64,000 bases of DNA from Polyangiaceae bacterium (lineage in GTDB: Bacteria > Myxococcota_A > Polyangia > Polyangiales > Polyangiaceae): contig JANXOF010000081.1 of NCBI GenBank assembly GCA_025353725.1, forward strand, positions 124,001 to 188,000. Reading direction: 5' to 3'. Positions within the stretch are counted from its first letter, which is position 1. Each line of letters opens with the position of its first letter. The notes beneath the pieces were generated by a model. The model made no database searches. It had not been told where the DNA came from and saw nothing but the letters and a program-made list of their open reading frames with translations. Both the position numbers and the translations under genes were made by a program. Below are positions 8,795 through 21,428 of the stretch, in pieces.

Positions 8795-9574
8795 TCAGAC
8801 GGCGGGCTCGTCGATCCAGCGCGCGAGGATAGCGGTGATGTTGTCGGGACCGCCGTTTTCATTGGCGCGCTCGACAAGCTTCGAGGCGACGACGCGGAGG
8901 TCGGAGTACTTCATGCAGATTTCGAGCATCTCCGGGTCCTCGACGGGGCCTGAAAGGCCGTCGGAACACAAGATGTAGATGTCGCCTGCGCGGGGCGTCT
9001 CGAACCGAGTGTCGACCTTGACCGTGTCTTTCATGCCGAGCGCGCGCACGATGACGTTCTTGTGAGGAAAGTTCGCGATCTCCTCCGCCGTCAGGCGCTT
9101 CATCTTGATGTAGTCGTTCAGAAGCGAGTGGTCTTCGGAGAGCTGCTCGATCTTGCCGTCGCGCACGCGGTAACCGCGCGAATCACCGACGTGAGCGATG
9201 TAAACGCCCTCTTCGACGGCGAACATGACAACGATCGTCGTCCCCATGCCTCGTTTGCCGGCTTCGCGCTGTGCGGTCTCGTAAATGCGTAGGTTTGCGA
9301 GCTTAATCCCGGTGATGAGCCGATTCTCCTCGTAGCCCTTCGCGCGGTCCATCTTGTAGGGCCAGGTGCGCTCGGGATCTTGCGCGGTAGCAGCGAAAAA
9401 CTCTTTTAGGGAGTCCACCGCCATTTTGCTCGCGACCTCGCCCGAAGCGTGGCCACCCATGCCATCGGCGACCACATAGAGGCCGCTATCCTCGATGATC
9501 GAGAAATTGTCCTCGTTGTGCGTACGCTTCATCCCGACGTTAGTTTCGCCGGCCACCTCGATGCGAAGTCCCAC
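8795..9574 (-). CDS. PP2C-family serine/threonine protein phosphatase
   Basis: 259 residues, a complete stand-alone PPM/PP2C catalytic domain of the PrpC/Stp type. Metal-binding motifs are seen in order: RTHNEDNF near residue 17, VADGMGGHASGE near 37, AHVGDSRGYRVRDGKIEQLSEDHS near 150, LCSDGLSG near 205, and GGPDNITAILA at the C-terminus. It is soluble and expected to remove phosphate from Ser/Thr of kinase substrates using two Mn or Mg ions. Context: same strand as the membrane Ser/Thr kinase 2 kb upstream and 42 bases after the HtrA-like gene, so it is the likely counter-enzyme of that kinase. Confidence 0.93.
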   Translation of the reverse strand: MGLRIEVAGETNVGMKRTHNEDNFSIIEDSGLYVVADGMGGHASGEVASKMAVDSLKEFFAATAQDPERTWPYKMDRAKGYEENRLITGIKLANLRIYETAQREAGKRGMGTTIVVMFAVEEGVYIAHVGDSRGYRVRDGKIEQLSEDHSLLNDYIKMKRLTAEEIANFPHKNVIVRALGMKDTVKVDTRFETPRAGDIYILCSDGLSGPVEDPEMLEICMKYSDLRVVASKLVERANENGGPDNITAILARWIDEPAV

Positions 9575-9616
9575 ACTCGGATGGTCCTAGGCTAGCGGCC
9601 TACTGTCAACGACCGT

Positions 9617-10663
9617 CTACGGGGCGGCGCGAAGAGTGACCAAGACCTCGCGAAACTTGCCCTGACTGAAGACCAAAAATTTGACCTGCTGGTCGACTCC
9701 CCGCTGGGCGATGGAGCTCGCGAGCTGCTCGGGCGTCTCCACGGGTGTCCCGTCTACGGCGACAATGACGTCGGGAGTCTGGCCGCCTGCCTTCAACCCA
9801 GACGCCTCCGCTGGGCTGCCTGGGGCAACCCCCACCACCCGTACACCCTTGACGCCGCCAGGTTCCGTCGACGCGCCCCCGAGGCCAAGCCAGGCGGACG
9901 GCGCGGCCGCTTGAACGGGTGCCTTCATCAGGAACGCACGAAGGGCGTACACGGGCGCGCCAACCGTCAGCGTTACGCAAGGCGTGCCCGAAGCCATCTC
10001 AGCCACGGGGCGTACGCGTGACGCGGGGCCGACCAAGTCAACCGCCGGCTTGCATGCTTTGATGAGCACTCCCACCACATGGCCGCTCGGATCGACAAGC
10101 GGCGCTCCGGGAACCGAGACAGCCCCTTTGAAGTCGATCTCCAGCGCACTACGCAGCTCGTCACCGTGCTTCGCTTTCGCGTCGATACGGCCCTTCGCGA
10201 CGAGCGAGGCTTGAGCGAGTTTGCCGCCCTTTGGAAGAAACGATCGGAGCTCGACGCCCTGCGGGTCGGAATCGGTCGGGCTCAAGCCGTCGCGCCATCG
10301 ACTGCCCGTAGGGGCCAAAAGCGCGAGATCCCAGGCGTCGTCCGTGTGCACGATTTTAGCTCGCACGACGCTTCCGTCGGCGTAGCGAATGTCAGGCTCC
10401 GCGACATTCGTGAGCGACGAAAGAGCGGTCAACACGCGTCCGTCGTTGGCGAGCACTGTGCCTACCGCGAGGGGCCGACCGCCTTGCTCGACCTGCACAA
10501 TGCCTCTGCGGATAGCTTCCGGTTGACTTAAAGGTGGAGTCGGGTTGGTCGCATGAGCGGAGCCTACGGGCGTCGCGGGAGCCGCTCGCGTGACGCGCGA
10601 GATTGCCGCGAGTTCGAGGACAACCACGGACAAGAGAAGACTAGAACCAACGGTGCGCGCCAT
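9617..10663 (-). CDS. HtrA/DegP-like protein with degenerate protease triad, PDZ domain
   Basis: 348 residues: signal peptide (cleavage near residue 28 after V-T-R-A-A), a trypsin-like domain (about 45-235) and a PDZ domain (about 245-345, with VRVVGVAPGSPAEASGLKAG). Aligning to HtrA by eye, the His motif TNNHV is TALSS (Ser82), the Asp motif is kept (DDAWDLALL, Asp112), and the Ser motif GNSGGPL reads SVPGAPL (Pro185 at the catalytic Ser). Two of three triad residues are gone, so it should be proteolytically dead and act as a periplasmic sensor, scaffold or chaperone. It lies between the kinase-associated membrane protein and the PP2C gene, which fits a sensing or adaptor part in that signalling group. 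Confidence 0.85.
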   Translation of the reverse strand: MARTVGSSLLLSVVVLELAAISRVTRAAPATPVGSAHATNPTPPLSQPEAIRRGIVQVEQGGRPLAVGTVLANDGRVLTALSSLTNVAEPDIRYADGSVVRAKIVHTDDAWDLALLAPTGSRWRDGLSPTDSDPQGVELRSFLPKGGKLAQASLVAKGRIDAKAKHGDELRSALEIDFKGAVSVPGAPLVDPSGHVVGVLIKACKPAVDLVGPASRVRPVAEMASGTPCVTLTVGAPVYALRAFLMKAPVQAAAPSAWLGLGGASTEPGGVKGVRVVGVAPGSPAEASGLKAGGQTPDVIVAVDGTPVETPEQLASSIAQRGVDQQVKFLVFSQGKFREVLVTLRAAP

Positions 10664-10765
10664 TCGATGGTGGACGCTAGCACCGCCAGCGCCGCATCCA
10701 AGCCGCAGGGGCGACGGCCCTCAAGAACGCCCAACGCCCGATGCCACGACCGCCGGCGTCGCGCG

Positions 10766-11641
10766 CTAGAACGTGAACCATGGGCTCGCGGCGGTAGGTC
10801 GAGCATGCCTTGAACTTGGAGCGTCCTCCGGATCACGATGACTTCCCTGCGCGAAGTACCAAACGAGACCACCGAGGAGCGCGACGGCGCCGCCGATACC
10901 GACCGCCAGGCCCGTATTCGAGAGTCGAAGGCCGGATTCGGCTTTGGCAAATACCGATGCCCCGGGTGGTGCCGCACATTCCCTCGTCGACACAGAGCAC
11001 GCGTCGGGAACGCTGCTCGAACCGAGGCCAAAGAGCACACCGCCTGTGACTACGGCCGCTGCACCAACGCCCGCGACGACAAGAGGAAATGCGCCTCGCC
11101 TCGTGGGGGCTGCCCGCGCAACCGGCGCGTCGGCGGCGTCGCTTTTCGAAGGCGAATGGTCCACGAACGACGCGGTTAGGTTTCGCCCGCGTTCTCCCTG
11201 GTTGAGAACGACCTTGAGCGCGACTTCTTTGCCCTCGTGAACATACCGGAGGACATGTTTTCCCGGCTCCAACTCGTAGGCTCGCCCATCATCGAGTCGC
11301 GTTGTGACGAGAACATCGTCTACGTAGACCGAGGTGAGGGAGAGATCGCCGCCGGTCGCATCTCGCGCGCTCAACGTCACCGTGGGGACGAGCTGCGCGA
11401 GCTCTTCGCCAAAGCGCGCGCAGTCTTGCTGCACGAGAGACGGACACGAGCTTTGGGCGCACGCAAGAAAGGCCTGCCTGGCCCGCGCGATTTGCCCGCG
11501 CTCGCGAAACTCTTGGGCACGACCGTGAGCGTCGACGCATTCCTCGCGCGACGGCGCCGCTTGTGCCCACGAGGATACGAGAATCACGAGAGAGGCGGAG
11601 CTTAGCACCGCGAAAGACTGTGGCGTTCGTCGCATCGACAT
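10766..11641 (-). CDS. PEGA-like secreted/membrane protein linked to Ser/Thr kinases
   Basis: 291 residues from the ATG at 11641, which has AAGGAG eight bases upstream; an upstream in-frame extension would overlap the kinase gene. Signal peptide ends at S-W-A-Q-A-A. Next comes a Cys-containing helical segment (EECVDAHGRAQEFRERGQ...CPSLVQQDC) like the TPR-type start of this family, then a beta sandwich resembling PEGA (SVYVDDVLVTTRLDDGRAYELEPGKH), and two hydrophobic segments near residues 190-210 and 240-265. Proteins of this build commonly follow membrane Ser/Thr kinase genes in Polyangia. It starts 24 bases after the kinase stop, so co-transcription is very likely; the role is probably surface sensing or envelope anchoring. 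Confidence 0.75.
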   Translation of the reverse strand: MSMRRTPQSFAVLSSASLVILVSSWAQAAPSREECVDAHGRAQEFRERGQIARARQAFLACAQSSCPSLVQQDCARFGEELAQLVPTVTLSARDATGGDLSLTSVYVDDVLVTTRLDDGRAYELEPGKHVLRYVHEGKEVALKVVLNQGERGRNLTASFVDHSPSKSDAADAPVARAAPTRRGAFPLVVAGVGAAAVVTGGVLFGLGSSSVPDACSVSTRECAAPPGASVFAKAESGLRLSNTGLAVGIGGAVALLGGLVWYFAQGSHRDPEDAPSSRHARPTAASPWFTF

Positions 11642-11664
11642 CAAGGACTCCTTCAGGCGGGAAA

Positions 11665-13380
11665 TTATAAGCAACTTGGCTTGAATACCTTTTTCGTTCC
11701 TTCGAAGAAAAAGGGAGGATTGCAGTCGACTTTCACGCTCGACACCGAAGCGGCTGCTGAGGCCGGACTCGCCACCGCAGACGGACTTTGTCCTGAGGGC
11801 GCGGACGGCGTCACGCGCACGGGCCCAGCAGCGCGCGGGGCCCAGTGATTCGGCTTGGGCAGAGGCGCACTCGCGGGGGCCGTTGGAGGGGACGTAGGCG
11901 TCGCAGAAAGCGCCGCGAGTGGCGCTCGCGCCGACGTTATCGCGAGCGCGGACTCCGCCGAGTCGCTCTTCGAGGGCACGGAGCTGAAATCGACCGCGGG
12001 AGCCGAATCACGCCTCACGGCAGAGGCCGCCGCGCGGGATGTCACCATGCTTTCACGTACGAATCCGCCCGCGAGGCCGGCTAGTACTAGCGCCGAAGCC
12101 GCTACCCAAGTCACAAGCCGCGAGCTTCGCATCGCGGCCACGGAACGCGGCACGGACGACGCCCCGAGCGCTCGTCGAAAAACCTCCGAGTCGTCCGCAT
12201 CGCCGGGGGCACGGGAAGGAAACGTCACGGACGGCGGAGCCGAGGTGCGCGTTGACGAAGAGGCATAGCCCGCGATCGAGAGCGAGTCGGTCGAGCCGAG
12301 CGACAGCGCTCCCACCAACGAGCCCACGGTGCGCTGCGTACCTGAGCTCGGGGCAAAGAGCGCCTTGCGCCGGAAACTTTCTTCGTTTGCAGTGAGCACG
12401 CGTTGGCTTTGGTCGAGGAACTCAGCCCCTGCCGCGCGCACCCAATCAGCGACCTCCATCGAGGTGGCGCCGGGGCGAACGTCGAGAAGCGCGCGCTGCA
12501 TTTCGGCCGCCGTCGCAAATCGGTCGGTGCTGCTTTGGGACATGGCGCGCGCCACGATGGCGTCGAGCGCAAGCAGCTCCTTCCACCGTGCTTCCGCCGT
12601 CGTGCGGCGCGAATCAGCGAGCGCCTCGGTCACTCGCGGGATGGATCCGTTCATCACGGCCGTGACGAAAGCAAGCTCACTGCGTCCGTCGTAAATGCGT
12701 CGATTGACAAGCATCTCCCAGGCGAGAACCCCAGTCGCATAGAGATCGGCCGTGCGGTCAATGCCCTCCATCCTCAGCTGTTCAGGGGCCATGTAGGCGA
12801 GCTTCCCCTTGAATACACCGTCACGTGTATGGTGCGCACTGGTCCGCGCTTTCGCGATCCCGAAGTCCAGCAGCCGCGGAATCCCATCCACGCTGACCAT
12901 CACGTTTTGAGGAGAAACGTCGCGATGCACGATGTCGAGCGGTTGCCCGGCTTCATCCGTCACTTCGTGCGCCGCGTGGAGACCGGCGAGAACCCCCGTC
13001 AACAATGCGACGGCGATATCGAGAGGAAGCGGCGCGCCGCTGGTCTGCGCAGCCTTCATCAACTGGCTAAGCGGAACGCCGTGCACGTACTCCATAACGA
13101 GAATAAGCTCGCGGCCAGCCATAACGACATCGAGTACGGGAACCACGTTCGGATGATGAATGTGGGAGGCAATGCATGCCTCGTCGTGAAACATAGTCAC
13201 GAAATCCGGATCTTCAGCGAATTGAGGGTGAAGCCGTTTGGCCGCAACGAGACGCGAAAATCCCTCGGCGCCGACGAGTCGTGCGGTATGTACGGAAGCC
13301 ATACCGCCGCGTGCGATCGCCGGGTAAAGAAGATACCGACCGAACGACTCGGGCGGAATCGAGTGCGCGAGCTCGTTCAT
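11665..13380 (-). CDS. Transmembrane Ser/Thr protein kinase (PKN type)
   Basis: 571 residues. Kinase domain about 14-285: Gly-rich loop ARGGMAS, VAAK with Lys48, Glu67 in the C helix, HRDVSPQN (Asp154) and DFG (172-174). All catalytic residues are present. A linker leads to one membrane helix near residue 425 (WVAASALVLAGLAGGF), then a Ser/Pro/Ala-rich outer region ending with a Cys-bearing tail (CNPPFFFEG...FKPSCL), a C-terminal signature I associate with Polyangia kinases. AGGAGACCCGCA precedes the ATG. The gene follows a LivK-like receptor gene by 51 bases and precedes its PEGA-like partner, so the outer tail may receive a signal from either. Confidence 0.95.
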   Translation of the reverse strand: MNELAHSIPPESFGRYLLYPAIARGGMASVHTARLVGAEGFSRLVAAKRLHPQFAEDPDFVTMFHDEACIASHIHHPNVVPVLDVVMAGRELILVMEYVHGVPLSQLMKAAQTSGAPLPLDIAVALLTGVLAGLHAAHEVTDEAGQPLDIVHRDVSPQNVMVSVDGIPRLLDFGIAKARTSAHHTRDGVFKGKLAYMAPEQLRMEGIDRTADLYATGVLAWEMLVNRRIYDGRSELAFVTAVMNGSIPRVTEALADSRRTTAEARWKELLALDAIVARAMSQSSTDRFATAAEMQRALLDVRPGATSMEVADWVRAAGAEFLDQSQRVLTANEESFRRKALFAPSSGTQRTVGSLVGALSLGSTDSLSIAGYASSSTRTSAPPSVTFPSRAPGDADDSEVFRRALGASSVPRSVAAMRSSRLVTWVAASALVLAGLAGGFVRESMVTSRAAASAVRRDSAPAVDFSSVPSKSDSAESALAITSARAPLAALSATPTSPPTAPASAPLPKPNHWAPRAAGPVRVTPSAPSGQSPSAVASPASAAASVSSVKVDCNPPFFFEGTKKVFKPSCL

Positions 13381-13431
13381 TGCGGGTCTCCTGACGTCGC
13401 TTCGCTCGTTTCCAACGTTGAATAAAGCATG

Positions 13432-14949
13432 TTACTCAAAGAGCTGAATCGGAGTACCTTCGCTCCAAAAGTAGCTATTTGCAAAACTCCCATCGGCCGC
13501 GATAGCGGTTCCGAAAACAGACTTCGAGTAGTCGTGGCGCGCAGCCGTAAAGCCCGACGTAGCGCCGAGTCCGAGACTCAAGCGCGGGAGCTTCTCGAAG
13601 GTGGCTACAAGCGCGTCCGGAGTGAAGGGCCCCTCGTGGGCGGCAAGGCCCGCCACGAAAATGCGCCCTGCGAGATAGCCCTCGAGCGACGTGAAGCTCG
13701 GCGCAAGATTGGAGGCGGCAAGCGCTTTGAGATAATCACGCACGCCGTCACTGTCGTCACTCTGGTAGTTCGGAACGACTTGCGAGACGAAGACACCTTC
13801 CGTGTAGGACTTTACGCCGTCAGCGGTTTGAACGCCGCCGGCATCATGGAGGCGCGCGGCGAGAGAGTTCGGCCCCACGAACGACACATTACTAAAATAT
13901 AGAGTAAGACGTTTCGCTTTATTATTGGATGTTTGCTCTACGTCGCTCGCGTACTGCCAATCTCGAATTCCGCGAATGTACTGCGTTGAAGGCCCGTAGG
14001 TGTCGGTCATCAGGATACCGACAACGTGGTTCCCTGGTTCTGCGAGGAGCTTCGAAAAGTAAGCTGTGGTGGCTTTAATTTGCTCCGGGACGCTCGAGGT
14101 GTCCTCCCGCGCATAGCGAAACCGTGCAACCGGTACCGCAGGCGGGCCTTCAACGGCTGTCACCGCAGCGACAAGGCCGTCGTAGCCGGCTTGGCCGAAC
14201 GAGTCAGCCTGGTCAAAACTCACGAAGTGGCGTGCGTCGGAAACGCGAAGTTTTTTGAAATACTCCACCGTCGCGCGCGCCTCCTGAGCGTAGCTCGCGC
14301 GGACGTTGAAGATGTACTTACGACAAGGGCCCGAGAGTTCGTCCCGGAGCACCTTCGCGGCTCCGGTGAATGCGCCGAAAAAGAGGCTCCCTGTTTCGAC
14401 CGCAATAGGTGCAGACCGCACCATCGTCGGTGTTCCGACGCTACCAAGGAGCGCGAGCACCGCGTTCGGCCCCCGAACGAGGGCGCTGTCGGCCACCGGC
14501 TGGTCCCCCGACACTACGGCTGTCGTCGTCGTTGGGCATCGTGCGGGCGTCGACGACGCCACGACGTCGAGCAAGTCCCGTGCTGCGATTTCAGCCGTTT
14601 GCGGTTGGTATTGGTCGTCGCGGAAGGCGAGCTCGATGGTGCGACCGCGAATGCCGCCGAGTGCGTTTTGGCCGTCGAAGGCGAGCGTAATGCCTTTCTT
14701 CATTTCGGTCCCGAGCTCTTGGCTAGGCCCGCTAAGCGGTGCGCTCATTCCGATACGCAATGGCTCGTCAGCGCTCGCGACACAGGTGGACTGCCCCGAA
14801 CGTGTTCCACACACGAATCCGGTGCCGCACTCCGTGTCGGTTTTGCACGCCTTCGCGTGAAATGTAGCCGAGCACGAAGCGAGCGACGAGAGAGAGACAA
14901 GGAAGGCGACGGCGAGGGCCGCTACGGGCGAAGAATCCGGGCGAGGCAT
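13432..14949 (-). CDS. LivK-like periplasmic ligand-binding lipoprotein
   Basis: 505 residues from the ATG at 14949, chosen because it begins the signal peptide; the frame upstream is Arg-rich. Lipobox S-L-A-S-C. A short Cys-rich EGF-like knot follows (CKTDTECGTGFVC), then a type I periplasmic-binding fold of the Leu/Ile/Val-binding family: RIGMSAPLSGPSQELGTEM..GITLAF, GGIRGRTIELAFRDDQY, and VLALLGSVGTPTM. In transporters this domain delivers amino acids, but no permease or ATPase genes are nearby. Sitting directly upstream of a membrane Ser/Thr kinase, it more likely acts as a ligand receptor for that kinase (inference). Substrate unknown. Confidence 0.87.
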   Translation of the reverse strand: MPRPDSSPVAALAVAFLVSLSSLASCSATFHAKACKTDTECGTGFVCGTRSGQSTCVASADEPLRIGMSAPLSGPSQELGTEMKKGITLAFDGQNALGGIRGRTIELAFRDDQYQPQTAEIAARDLLDVVASSTPARCPTTTTAVVSGDQPVADSALVRGPNAVLALLGSVGTPTMVRSAPIAVETGSLFFGAFTGAAKVLRDELSGPCRKYIFNVRASYAQEARATVEYFKKLRVSDARHFVSFDQADSFGQAGYDGLVAAVTAVEGPPAVPVARFRYAREDTSSVPEQIKATTAYFSKLLAEPGNHVVGILMTDTYGPSTQYIRGIRDWQYASDVEQTSNNKAKRLTLYFSNVSFVGPNSLAARLHDAGGVQTADGVKSYTEGVFVSQVVPNYQSDDSDGVRDYLKALAASNLAPSFTSLEGYLAGRIFVAGLAAHEGPFTPDALVATFEKLPRLSLGLGATSGFTAARHDYSKSVFGTAIAADGSFANSYFWSEGTPIQLFE

Positions 14950-15090
14950 AGTCCGCCGTGAAGCACGTCCCGGGCCATCACCGAGCACACGGCTCGGTCG
15001 ACTTGCGCGCGCGAGACCCAGGGTGGTGCGTGGGTTTACCCGCATCATGCCTGCGGGATACGCGCCGCAAGGAGACGTGAGACCGCGTGG

Positions 15091-15696
15091 TCACGCGTAG
15101 GTCTTGCGGGCAAAAAGCGACCGGCTCGGGTCCGCGACGCGGTCGACAAAGACGAATCCGTCGAGATGGTCGATTTCGTGCTGTAGGCATCGAGCCTCCA
15201 TCGCATCGGCCGCAACGCGCACGAGCTTTCCGGAGCCCGGCTCGTAACCCTCGACGACAACGGTGGCCGCACGCCGGACGTCGCCGGTAAAGTCGGGGAC
15301 GCTCATGCAGCCCTCACGCATGAGAATCTCCCCCGAACTTTCGACGATCCGAGGGTTCGCCATCACGACAAGCCCGGCGCACGAGCGCGCTTTCTTGTGC
15401 CCCGTGAGATCCATGCAAAATACACGAACGGACTCGCCGACCTGCGGCGCCGCAAGACCTACGCACGCCGGCGAAACACGCATCAAGGCGACCAGCGATT
15501 CCGCGAGCTCAAGGACGGCGGCCGCACGTGGATTCACCTCGCCCGCGCGCATCCCGAGGACTGCGTTCGGACACGAGAGAACGCGGCGCACGGGTGACAA
15601 GCGGAACGTTCCGCTGATGGTTCCGCGCGAATTGATGGGTGCGGGTGCGGGTGCGTACTGCGGGTCGACGGTGAGAGCATGCAGGTTTTTTGGCAT
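15091..15696 (-). CDS. def: Peptide deformylase
   Basis: 201 residues from the ATG at 15696, which has GGAGG nearby upstream; an in-frame GTG lies 36 bases earlier. All three deformylase motifs are present: GLAAPQVG (residues 80-87), EGCMSV (128-133, Met in place of the usual Leu; Cys130 is the metal ligand) and HEIDH (173-177). It removes the N-formyl group from new proteins using Fe2+ or a similar metal. It is longer than the about 170-residue bacterial enzymes because of an N-terminal extension of some 35 residues rich in Pro and Ala. It follows the sigma54 activator by 66 bases on the same strand. No fmt gene is seen next to it. It could be a second copy. Confidence 0.9.
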   Translation of the reverse strand: MPKNLHALTVDPQYAPAPAPINSRGTISGTFRLSPVRRVLSCPNAVLGMRAGEVNPRAAAVLELAESLVALMRVSPACVGLAAPQVGESVRVFCMDLTGHKKARSCAGLVVMANPRIVESSGEILMREGCMSVPDFTGDVRRAATVVVEGYEPGSGKLVRVAADAMEARCLQHEIDHLDGFVFVDRVADPSRSLFARKTYA

Positions 15697-15762
15697 ACGC
15701 GGGTGGCCTCCAGACGGATCTGGGGAGCACAACGCGGGCCAACTGACGCGCCGCGACGAGGC

Positions 15763-17223
15763 TTAAGCTTTCCGCCCTACCTTCAACCCGTGTTTCTGCG
15801 CGAGTTGATGAAGATACATTCGGTCCATCTTCGCAGCGCGCGCGGCCTGGCTCACATTGCCGTTGCATCGCTCGATGAGAGGCGCCAGGTACGCTCGCTC
15901 GAACGACGTAACGGCCGCCTCTTTCGCGATGCGAAAAGCGACGTCCGTGTAGTCCGCCTTGTTCTCTGGTTTCCCGTCCGCGTAAGGTCGCTCCGAATCG
16001 CGTGGCTCGCCGAACGGAGCGCCGTCGGGCTCTTCGACAAGAGGTCGCACACTCGAACGAATCGTCCCGCTCCGGCGCGACGGAGGCGGTACGTCGTCGA
16101 GCACCACGCTCCGTTCAATGTAGTTTTTGAGTTCGCGAACGTTGCCCGGCCAGTCGTGTCTCTGCATCTCAGAGACGACCTCCGGCGAGAAGAGTCGCGA
16201 CCCGTCTTGCCCTCCAATCTGCGCGAGGAAACTCGTGACCAAAAGTGGGATGTCCTCGACGCGGTCGCGCAGGGGCGGAACCCTCACGCCTACCTTGGCA
16301 AGGCGGTAGTAGAGATCCTCACGGAAGCGACCGCGATTTACCTCACGCTCCAATTCACGATTGGTGGCCGCAATCACGCGGACGTCAATCGCCTTCATTT
16401 TCGTCTGTCCGACGCGCCTCACCTCGCGCGCTTCGAGGGCACGGAGAAGCTTCGGCTGGAGCTCTAAGGGCAGTTCGCCTATCTCGTCCAGAAAGAGTGT
16501 TCCACCGTCGGCCGCCTCGAACGCTCCCGCGCGATCGCGGTCTGCCCCCGTGAACGCGCCGCGAACATGGCCGAAGAGCTCACTCTCGACCAAGTTCGGC
16601 GAAATAGCGCCGCAATCAACCACGACGACGGGGCCGTCGGCGCGTGCGCTGCGCTGCACGAGCTCCGTCGCTACGAGCTCTTTGCCTGTGCCACTCTCGC
16701 CGTTGATGAGCACATCGATTTCACTCGCCGCGATGCGTTCAAGCACGGCGAACAGCCGCTGCATGAGTAAGCTTTGCCCAATCATCGCGCCAAACTGCGT
16801 CGGGACAACGACCCTGGTGACGTGACCGCGGCTCACAGGCCGCACGCGAATCGACGATTCACCGAGCGAGATGAGCGACTCGCTCTCGAACTCCGCGGCA
16901 AGGACTTTCACGCCGTCGAGCCGCGTCCCGTTCATCGATCCCGTATCGGTGACGCGCCACGCCTTTCCTTCGCGTGCGATGCGACAGTGAAAACGCGAAA
17001 TCGTCTTGTCTTCGAGCACCAAGTCGTTCGACTCATGGGAGCCAACTCGGCAACCCTCTCCGTCGAAGTCGAGCGCGAGGGAAGACTCTTTTCCGGCGAC
17101 GCGCTCCACCTTGATGTGAAGCCTGACGAGTTCCAGTGCCGCGGTTGCGCCATGCGCGGCAAGCGGGTTCGCGTACTTTGCCCGTGTGACGTTACGCTCG
17201 CTGAAGTCTTCGCTCGCCGCCAT
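15763..17223 (-). CDS. FHA-domain sigma54-dependent transcriptional activator
   Basis: 486 residues in three parts. FHA domain (about 30-125): GCRVGSHESNDLVLEDKTIS then RFHCRI and DTGSMNGTRLDG, the phosphothreonine-recognition loops. AAA+ domain (about 145-385): Walker A GESGTGKE, the sigma54-contacting GAFTGA within ELFGHVRGAFTGA, Walker B GGTLFLDEIGE, and the WPGNVRELKNYIE segment. C-terminal Fis-type helix-turn-helix with RCNGNVSQAARAAKMDRMYL. It should open sigma54 promoters after sensing a phosphothreonine partner, probably a substrate of a Ser/Thr kinase. FHA-fused activators of this kind are characteristic of myxobacteria. It follows the response regulator gene by 11 bases, so they form an operon. 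Target promoters are not known. Confidence 0.95.
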   Translation of the reverse strand: MAASEDFSERNVTRAKYANPLAAHGATAALELVRLHIKVERVAGKESSLALDFDGEGCRVGSHESNDLVLEDKTISRFHCRIAREGKAWRVTDTGSMNGTRLDGVKVLAAEFESESLISLGESSIRVRPVSRGHVTRVVVPTQFGAMIGQSLLMQRLFAVLERIAASEIDVLINGESGTGKELVATELVQRSARADGPVVVVDCGAISPNLVESELFGHVRGAFTGADRDRAGAFEAADGGTLFLDEIGELPLELQPKLLRALEAREVRRVGQTKMKAIDVRVIAATNRELEREVNRGRFREDLYYRLAKVGVRVPPLRDRVEDIPLLVTSFLAQIGGQDGSRLFSPEVVSEMQRHDWPGNVRELKNYIERSVVLDDVPPPSRRSGTIRSSVRPLVEEPDGAPFGEPRDSERPYADGKPENKADYTDVAFRIAKEAAVTSFERAYLAPLIERCNGNVSQAARAAKMDRMYLHQLAQKHGLKVGRKA

Positions 17224-19933: not shown

Positions 19934-20244
19934 GCGGACCGGGCGCAGAGCATAGCGCGTGCCAACGTCGCGGGGTGAGAGGCGATGCGAACCGACGACG
20001 GATCTCGACCCAAACCGCGGCGCGGCTGACCCCGACCCGACAACCTGTCAGCCGCGATGCGCGCCTGCGGTCGTACGTGCCAATTTGACAAATTATTCTG
20101 AAGCGCGGTCGTTAGGCCGAAGGCCGTCCCGACTCGCGGTCGTTCGACGAGGCGAGCATCCCCCTGCCCTGGCGGCCAATCGTACGACGAAATACGCGCG
20201 GTGTTCCGTCTGGCGTGCAACCACCTCCGTGTTAGTGCTTCGCG
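19934..20244. other. Gene-poor spacer, 311 bp
   Basis: Between the MXAN_2561-type gene and the DUF3667 remnant. Open frames on both strands here are Arg-rich shadows with no recognisable domain. It must hold the promoter of the surface-protein pair; I cannot pick convincing -35/-10 boxes. The first 60 bases of the 20.0-20.1 kb part have local AT-rich patches (gacaaattattctg). Confidence 0.5.
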
Positions 20245-21247: not shown

Positions 21248-21428
21248 TTGAGGATTCGCTCCCGGGGCCACCGTTCCCTACGCACCTCGATTGAGTGTGC
21301 GCGGATCATCCGGGGGCCTGTGAGAGCACACGATCCACACGCGACCGCATATCGAATAGCAAAACGCGGGGAATCACGAGGTAGGTGAGCGCGCTCGTTG
21401 TGGCACATGCAATGCAAGCCCCGACACT

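Follow-up and report, generated by a model that had tools for sequence, protein, structure and literature searches.

A candidate sensing module of myxobacteria: a LivK-like receptor, a tailed Ser/Thr kinase and a PEGA-like partner

A 64,000-nucleotide stretch of the genome of a Polyangiaceae bacterium (contig JANXOF010000081.1, positions 124,001 to 188,000; "the window", numbered from its first letter) encodes, in adjacent genes, a LivK-like receptor lipoprotein, a membrane Ser/Thr kinase and a protein described as PEGA-like. Comparison of gene neighbourhoods indicates that these three genes are a conserved sensing module in myxobacteria, found in more than one family. We put at roughly 60% the probability that they make up a receptor Ser/Thr kinase sensed by a periplasmic binding protein, with a partner-docking tail and an FHA output. 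Sequence comparison shows the three-gene order, the separation of the receptor family from its transporter-type relatives and the match between tail and partner in module loci; ligand, binding, docking, direction of control and output are inferred. The features of the module are as follows.

13432–14949, minus strand: receptor lipoprotein, whose N-terminal segment is small and Cys-rich and whose ligand-binding domain is of the LivK type (Peripla_BP_6)
11665–13380, minus strand: membrane Ser/Thr kinase, with a cytoplasmic kinase domain, one transmembrane helix, a disordered linker and a C-terminal tail
11671–11724, minus strand: kinase tail, residues 553–570 (CNPPFFFEGTKKVFKPSC), a predicted extracytoplasmic beta-hairpin
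10766–11641, or to 11674 if an upstream TTG is the start, minus strand: PEGA-like protein, with a signal peptide, a TPR-like three-helix segment, a predicted transthyretin-like beta-sandwich and two hydrophobic helices

The preliminary description of this DNA took five genes, the three above followed by those for an HtrA/PDZ protein and a PP2C phosphatase, for one complete phospho-signalling circuit. The five are indeed consecutive on the minus strand in that reading order, with intergenic gaps of 51, 23, 102 and 42 bp from receptor to PP2C as computed from the coordinates. As a functional unit, the receptor–kinase–PEGA-like part is conserved, whereas HtrA and PP2C are a separately distributed pair.

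Conservation of the three-gene order

Kinase-domain matches number 152 in the 6.6 Mb of the window genome, so that a kinase beside any given gene pair is not rare by chance; the decisive test of linkage is conservation in other genomes, not adjacency in the window. We compared 35 receptor loci (the window, 6 from its genus, 26 from its class and the two named loci L281 and L294), leaving out three weak receptor matches of 34 (G058, G142 and G167:C201). Two loci end in or just past the receptor, which leaves 33 assessable. Genes beyond the window were called with a codon-likelihood caller that truncates some starts, and the counts for receptor loci, like those for HtrA loci below, were read by eye. 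In 28 of the 33 the receptor gene is followed directly by the kinase gene. Among these 28, the 22 loci with a complete kinase and sequence beyond it include 19 in which the PEGA-like gene follows directly; these come from families f1 and f23, with three single-contig genomes among them. Named carriers of the module include Labilithrix, Byssovorax and Kofleriaceae bins and Minicystis rosea DSM 24000. The divergent locus L259, from family f15, has a kinase without a tail and no PEGA-like gene. As a control we took the 52 next-best binding-protein loci (31–35% identical, mostly Bradyrhizobium and similar), at which a kinase was seen in 1/52 and a PEGA-like gene in 0/52 within the sequence available, many of the contigs being short.

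The receptor is a LivK-type periplasmic binding protein, as judged from its Peripla_BP_6 domain (PF13458, 130 bits against a cut-off of 31.7, E 1.8e-37), with a lipobox-like LASC recognised by eye; its nearest solved relative in a search with the family profile is 4kv7 (E 3.6e-78). In a tree built from the matched regions only, a single branch with support 100/100 splits 25 receptor-family rows from 17 of the 52 other binding proteins. Most members of the family carry a Cys-bearing insertion, absent from four aligned transporter-type proteins and from the divergent L302 and L303. In genome G011, contig C235 (L051/L286) carries a second receptor gene, 60% identical, after the PEGA-like gene, which suggests a receptor duplication; the ends of G011 contigs C444, C235 and C178, compared so as to order the genes around this second copy, share no exact overlap.

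The middle gene of the module encodes a Hanks-type Ser/Thr kinase (PF00069, E 6e-30, above cut-off), with HRD and DFG motifs and with Lys48, His152-Arg153-Asp154 and Asp172-Phe173-Gly174 invariant in 16 kinases. It has a single hydrophobic segment at residues ~423–441. The Pfam scan found neither PASTA repeats nor a TPR match in it, and the NF033483 score is 207 bits against a cut-off of 450. The structure model places a transmembrane helix at 418–450, a disordered, low-confidence linker at 451–548 and an ordered beta-hairpin of strands 557–560 and 563–566.

The third protein owes its name to the preliminary description, and the label holds as a statement of fold only: a transthyretin-like beta-sandwich is predicted, and the Pfam PEGA model, searched at E up to 1, has no match in any of the 17 family members. 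Among the same 17, each of ten TPR models matches a single member. The model of the window protein (mean predicted local distance difference test, pLDDT, 82) consists of the three-helix TPR-like segment, the sandwich at residues 87–158 and two long hydrophobic helices. The best fold match of the sandwich (residues ~84–162) is 6hif_Y with Z 9.7, followed by carboxypeptidases N and D at Z 8.4–8.6 and many lower-ranking structures of the same class; such values are usual for this fold class and carry no functional information. Six Cys are invariant across 13 aligned members, which suits an oxidising compartment. The best profile match in the PDB was the ribosomal protein eL38 (E 0.03), which we take to be a chance hit.

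The kinase tail within and beyond the module

Apart from the kinase domain, its C-terminal extension and the tail, the module kinases show little conservation. In 20-residue blocks across 21 of them, majority identity is 3–38% at residues 341–540 and rises to 41% and 70% in the last two blocks; block means of pLDDT over residues 551–570, in the model built from 16 sequences, are 84 and 86. The tail consensus is [DN]C[NDTS][PT]P[FY][FY][FYW][ED]GxKKx[FY]KPxC[LI], or CNPPFYFEGxKKxFKPxC in short form. Eight positions (Cys, Pro, Gly, three Lys, Pro, Cys) are invariant in 16 tail-bearing module kinases. Codons differ beneath the Pro, the Gly and some of the Lys, a sign that selection acts on the tail as protein rather than as a DNA signal. 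The two Cys would flank the hairpin and could be joined by a disulfide.

Within the module, tail and partner go together: the tail is present in 19/19 kinases directly followed by a PEGA-like gene, and in 0/3 of those not so followed. Of these three, L243 and L260 have a weaker PEGA-like relative elsewhere nearby that lacks, by eye, the Cys pattern of the family, and none was called at L259.

Tails also occur outside the module. The tail profile matches 138 times in 12 genus genomes (E up to 1; 1–22 per genome) and, at E up to 1e-6, has hits in 93 of 289 class genomes. Among 140 phylum genomes there are ten with matches at 1e-5, all from the window's own family. In the window genome, with 11 tail matches to 152 kinase-domain matches, tails are a minority. 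We sampled 67 hits; 56 of their open reading frames were identified as kinases, and the rest mostly break off ahead of the kinase domain. L134 and L158 have a C-terminal tail and no recognised kinase domain. Dropping L123 and L149, where the motif is not C-terminal, leaves 65 C-terminal tails, a sample of the 138 matches drawn partly from loci fetched with a PEGA-like query and partly from stretches that we chose. Two more had too little downstream sequence. Of the remaining 63, 34 are followed by a PEGA-like gene on the same strand, 2 by one on the opposite strand and 27 by a different gene. A PEGA-like gene is next to 2/12 non-tail kinases at the same genus loci. For the 35 tails in loci fetched by tail place alone the corresponding counts are 16, 2 and 17, while those in loci fetched with the PEGA-like query have a PEGA-like gene next in 10/10 by construction. 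A PEGA-like partner is therefore often, not always, the neighbour of a tail gene.

Two kinds of locus deserve separate mention. At L361 (1965–2372) a small non-kinase protein, called at 135 residues, ends in two tandem tail motifs; the tail may thus be a mini-domain that can move between proteins. At L154–L156 and L177, tail kinases end in ...G[RK][RK]KYKLECM-type sequences, and the next gene, of ~680–715 residues, is not PEGA-like.

These figures bear on whether the tail has anything to do with the PEGA-like protein. It might instead serve on its own, for example by sensing redox state through a disulfide, anchoring the protein to the cell wall or acting as a dimerisation clip, the adjacency of the two genes reflecting co-expression only. 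The two invariant Cys would fit such a role, as would the frequency of other neighbours (27/63, and 17/35 where the tail alone guided the choice) and the tandem tails on the non-kinase protein of L361. The perfect co-occurrence of tail and PEGA-like gene across the 22 module loci argues the other way, and we consider an independent tail unlikely, though well worth keeping in mind.

Proposed signalling, its alternatives and its precedents

In the scheme that we favour, the lipoprotein receptor would bind a small periplasmic ligand, and the PEGA-like protein, docking on the kinase tail, would couple the state of the receptor to the kinase, whether by clustering the kinase, by stabilising it or by relieving inhibition. 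The cytoplasmic kinase domain would then phosphorylate targets on Thr, and the phosphothreonine would be read by FHA proteins, among them, in the window genome and three others, a neighbouring FHA–sigma-54 activator, which perhaps also drives the receptor promoter. As a general phosphatase, PP2C could also have this kinase among its targets and so perhaps reverse the phosphorylations. Three features lie upstream of the receptor.

15763–17223, minus strand: FHA-domain sigma-54 activator, an accessory gene (FHA E 4e-14, Sigma54_activat E 2e-67)
15091–15696, minus strand: peptide deformylase, between activator and receptor (PF01327, E 2e-39)
14962–14977, minus strand: sigma-54-like promoter element, 28 nt ahead of the receptor start (score 14.5 of 16.5, reached by 0/200 shuffles)

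That the activator is of the FHA type is indicated by matches to PF00498 and PF00158 over their cut-offs and by a GAFTGA motif in the translation. The preliminary description had singled it out, at 15.8–17.2 kb, as a possible FHA-domain substrate, and its linkage to the module is borne out, an orthologue (65–76%) standing before the receptor in three other genomes. An element was counted as sigma-54-like if it had GG-N10-GC and a good score against the consensus. Elements scoring at least 13 precede the receptor in 4/4 activator-linked loci against 2/22 others, and 0, 0, 0 and 19 of 200 shuffles reach the receptor element of the four. A link between activator and receptor promoter element is no more than suggested by these counts.

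Several observations weigh against the scheme as a whole. The correlation of activator and promoter comes from four related genomes, in one of which the element is weak (the 19/200 shuffles), and in three further genomes, with a 42% identical FHA activator 3.4–3.9 kb upstream, the receptor element scores only 9.5, 12.0 and 13.0. Relatedness also affects the module itself: its 22 loci are related, so that their perfect tail–partner match represents fewer than 22 independent events. With non-PEGA-like neighbours at 27/63 tail genes, docking to an adjacent partner is no general rule, and the first tail profile was seeded from PEGA-like-query loci, which favours the association; loci fetched by tail place alone give 16/35. 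In the PEGA-like protein, Arg residues noted by eye ahead of its first hydrophobic helix do not suit a simple periplasmic topology, and the structure models were built on 16–17 sequences. Finally, five receptor loci (L051, L106, L195, L204 and L294) have no kinase next, four of them with a PEGA-like profile match just upstream (E 3e-87 to 2e-9).

Those five loci would also be accommodated if the receptor were a scavenging binding protein for a distant ATP-binding cassette (ABC) transporter, the kinase sensing something else through its tail and PEGA-like partner. Consistent with this, the LivK-type domain of the receptor shares many invariant columns with transporter-type relatives. However, the kinase stands next in 28/33 loci, the Cys-bearing insertion of most family members is missing from the four transporter-type proteins aligned, and no ABC transporter gene is found among the eight window proteins scanned (7.2–17.2 kb), the window being the only receptor locus scanned for them. 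We regard a scavenging role as improbable.

A wider proposal, to which we give somewhat less than even odds, is that the module belongs to an undescribed class of receptor kinases, with Labilithrix and Polyangiaceae among its carriers, marked by a C-terminal extracytoplasmic disulfide hairpin, the "CxPP...KPxC tail", on a flexible tether. Many of its members would dock a dedicated periplasmic TPR/transthyretin-like partner from an adjacent gene, one deeply conserved subclass would receive ligand information from the LivK-like lipoprotein and have a transcriptional loop closed by the FHA–sigma-54 activator, and paralogue-specific pairing would insulate up to about twenty pathways per cell.

Parts of this arrangement have precedents, in that both Ser/Thr kinases sensed through binding proteins and a periplasmic activator of a membrane kinase are already known (PMC6069109, PMC1262709, PMC6082577). 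The GlnH–GlnX–PknG operon of Actinobacteria encodes a Ser/Thr kinase together with a membrane protein and a lipoprotein of the binding-protein type, and the authors of that study proposed that GlnH senses amino acids and signals to PknG (PMC6069109). The module likewise sets a binding-protein lipoprotein gene alongside a Ser/Thr kinase gene. GlnH, however, takes its name from homology to a glutamine-transport binding protein, while the module receptor is of the LivK/Peripla_BP_6 type, and PknG is described as lacking transmembrane segments and having a TPR domain, while the module kinase has a predicted transmembrane helix, a tail and no TPR match (PMC6069109). None of the eight window proteins scanned is a GlnX-like four-helix-bundle (4HB) protein, which sets the module apart from the GlnH–GlnX–PknG system. 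In Streptomyces and Nostoc, a solute-binding or ANF-receptor domain is fused to the Ser/Thr kinase (PMC1262709), whereas here there are a separate lipoprotein, a tail and a third protein.

In Serratia, the gene for the periplasmic protein RtkS lies close to signalling genes; RtkS binds the membrane Ser/Thr kinase PpkA through the kinase's periplasmic part, is required for PpkA to be stable and increases the phosphorylation of an Fha protein (PMC6082577). A 76-residue chain, RtkS or PpkA, of the RtkS–PpkA structure 9k1u resembles the PEGA-like sandwich at Z 7.9, a loose fold match in the common range. Kinases of the PknB/PrkC type share the layout of a cytoplasmic kinase domain, one transmembrane helix and an outside region, but they carry PASTA repeats, for which the module kinase has no Pfam match. 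Neither the module nor the tail was found in the open-access literature searched, as judged from titles and abstract openings, nor did that literature yield a paper joining Myxococcus with the PEGA domain. What appears to be new, as not found in print, is the combination of a separate LivK-like lipoprotein, a hairpin-tailed kinase and a TPR/transthyretin-like partner.

Ser/Thr kinases are numerous in myxobacteria, with 317 in Sorangium cellulosum and 99 in Myxococcus xanthus (PMC2887360), and which stimuli activate bacterial kinases has been called an outstanding question (PMC6069109). As an older survey of seven myxobacteria reports a single syntenic kinase region, that of pkn4 (PMC2887360), a module conserved across families is useful. 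A receptor whose gene keeps its place beside one kinase gene in different families offers a definite route to finding a ligand, and the tail provides a motif by which the expanded kinases can be sorted and the avoidance of cross-talk between parallel pathways probed.

The HtrA–PP2C pair and promoter-like elements

Downstream of the module in the window lie three further features.

9617–10663, minus strand: HtrA/PDZ protein, catalytically dead, outside the module
8795–9574, minus strand: Stp1-type PP2C phosphatase, the partner of HtrA, outside the module
10679–10694, minus strand: sigma-54-like promoter element 31 nt ahead of HtrA, a weak copy reached by 7/200 shuffles

HtrA had been described as lacking two residues of its catalytic triad, which is correct: with columns placed by alignment to DegQ, His and Ser are gone and only Asp112 is kept in 10/10 full-length genus sequences, the window included. 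The His column is an invariant Ser82 and the Ser column is Pro, or Leu in one sequence. The protein does not qualify as an HtrA/DegP serine protease, its best DegP-type NCBIfam score being 54.9 against 416 bits. PP2C belongs to the Stp1/IreP type (NF033484, 246.3 bits, over the cut-off of 230). The two genes are adjacent in 12/12 genus genomes, HtrA being cut by a contig end in G008 and G011, and identity to the window within the genus is 86–95% for PP2C and 52–63% for whole HtrA copies. At 14 HtrA loci outside the genus, PP2C is next in seven and two genes further on in three, one locus is cut, and at the other three, from other families of the order, PP2C was not seen.

The pair keeps other company elsewhere. 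In all nine other genus genomes with a whole HtrA, a divergent gene of family F3, which we take by recognition to be lyase-like, lies upstream, with a small F9 gene between in five. The receptor–kinase–PEGA-like unit is directly upstream of HtrA in one of 25 loci with upstream sequence, that of the window, and in 0/24 others. A scan of 289 class genomes with family profiles at strict cut-offs gives 31 with the receptor, 72 with HtrA and 15 with both; module and HtrA unit are separated by 5.3–6.2 Mb in the single-contig genomes G228, G237 and G253 and lie on different contigs, in itself no proof of distance, in the other eleven genomes with both. A sigma-54-like element stands 30–35 nt ahead of HtrA in 8/9 other genus members tested, stronger than the window copy. 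The best explanation of this pattern is that HtrA–PP2C is a separate, older unit, brought beside the module by rearrangement.

If the junction between the PEGA-like and HtrA genes were an assembly chimera, its occurrence in the window only would need no rearrangement, and the source assembly does consist of 98 contigs. The junction lies, however, inside a 199-kb contig without a step in G+C, and genes on both of its flanks have close relatives in one neighbour genome, G011, which makes an artefact very improbable. There is less still to be said for a single five-gene circuit in which HtrA is the adaptor in the periplasm and PP2C a phosphatase dedicated to the kinase. The common strand and gaps of 23–102 bp in the window had lent it support, but the gene contexts, the independent distribution and HtrA's own promoter-like element largely refute it, leaving it next to no likelihood. 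The preliminary description had itself held that separate transcription and independent distribution in related genomes would undo the circuit: the latter is what we find for the HtrA–PP2C half, and the former is suggested by the promoter-like element. It had likewise proposed a check of gene order, which bears out the receptor–kinase and PEGA-like links (28/33 and 19/22) and goes against HtrA (0/24). A published survey warns that the proximity of kinase genes is easily over-read and finds kinase–phosphatase co-organisation rare in myxobacteria (PMC2887360); its warning applies to this half of the block.

The element ahead of the receptor is one instance of a promoter-like pattern, TGGC[AC]C-N5-[GAT]TGC, seen 28–45 nt before several starts; in the window it occurs at 14962–14977, 15726–15741 and 19949–19964 (minus strand) and at 21401–21416 (plus strand). 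In 60 genus sources, the 79 kb between called genes contain 46 sites scoring at least 14.5 and the 654 kb within genes contain 10, a density ~38 times higher between genes, and 24 of these 56 sites begin 15–44 nt before a called start; the loci partly overlap, so that a few sites may have been counted twice. Given the intergenic enrichment and the spacing to starts, the elements are likely to be promoters of some kind. With this geometry, messages starting from them would be almost leaderless, which is unusual for sigma-54. The rpoN gene is present. Just before the kinase and PEGA-like genes of the window no element scores 11.5 or more. Between 8.5 and 17.4 kb there is no consensus sigma-70 promoter, and six terminator-like sites compare with a shuffle mean of 8.7, which makes that scan uninformative on operon ends.

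The element at 15726–15741 precedes the deformylase gene, and one scoring at least 14 does so in 6/6 loci tested. A deformylase orthologue (62–69%) lies beside the receptor in five other genomes, and we regard this gene as probably a linked passenger of the receptor. In several genus members (L090, L091, L094–L096 and L100), HtrA–PP2C lies near an apparent phosphate-uptake operon, presumably pst/phoU as named by eye.

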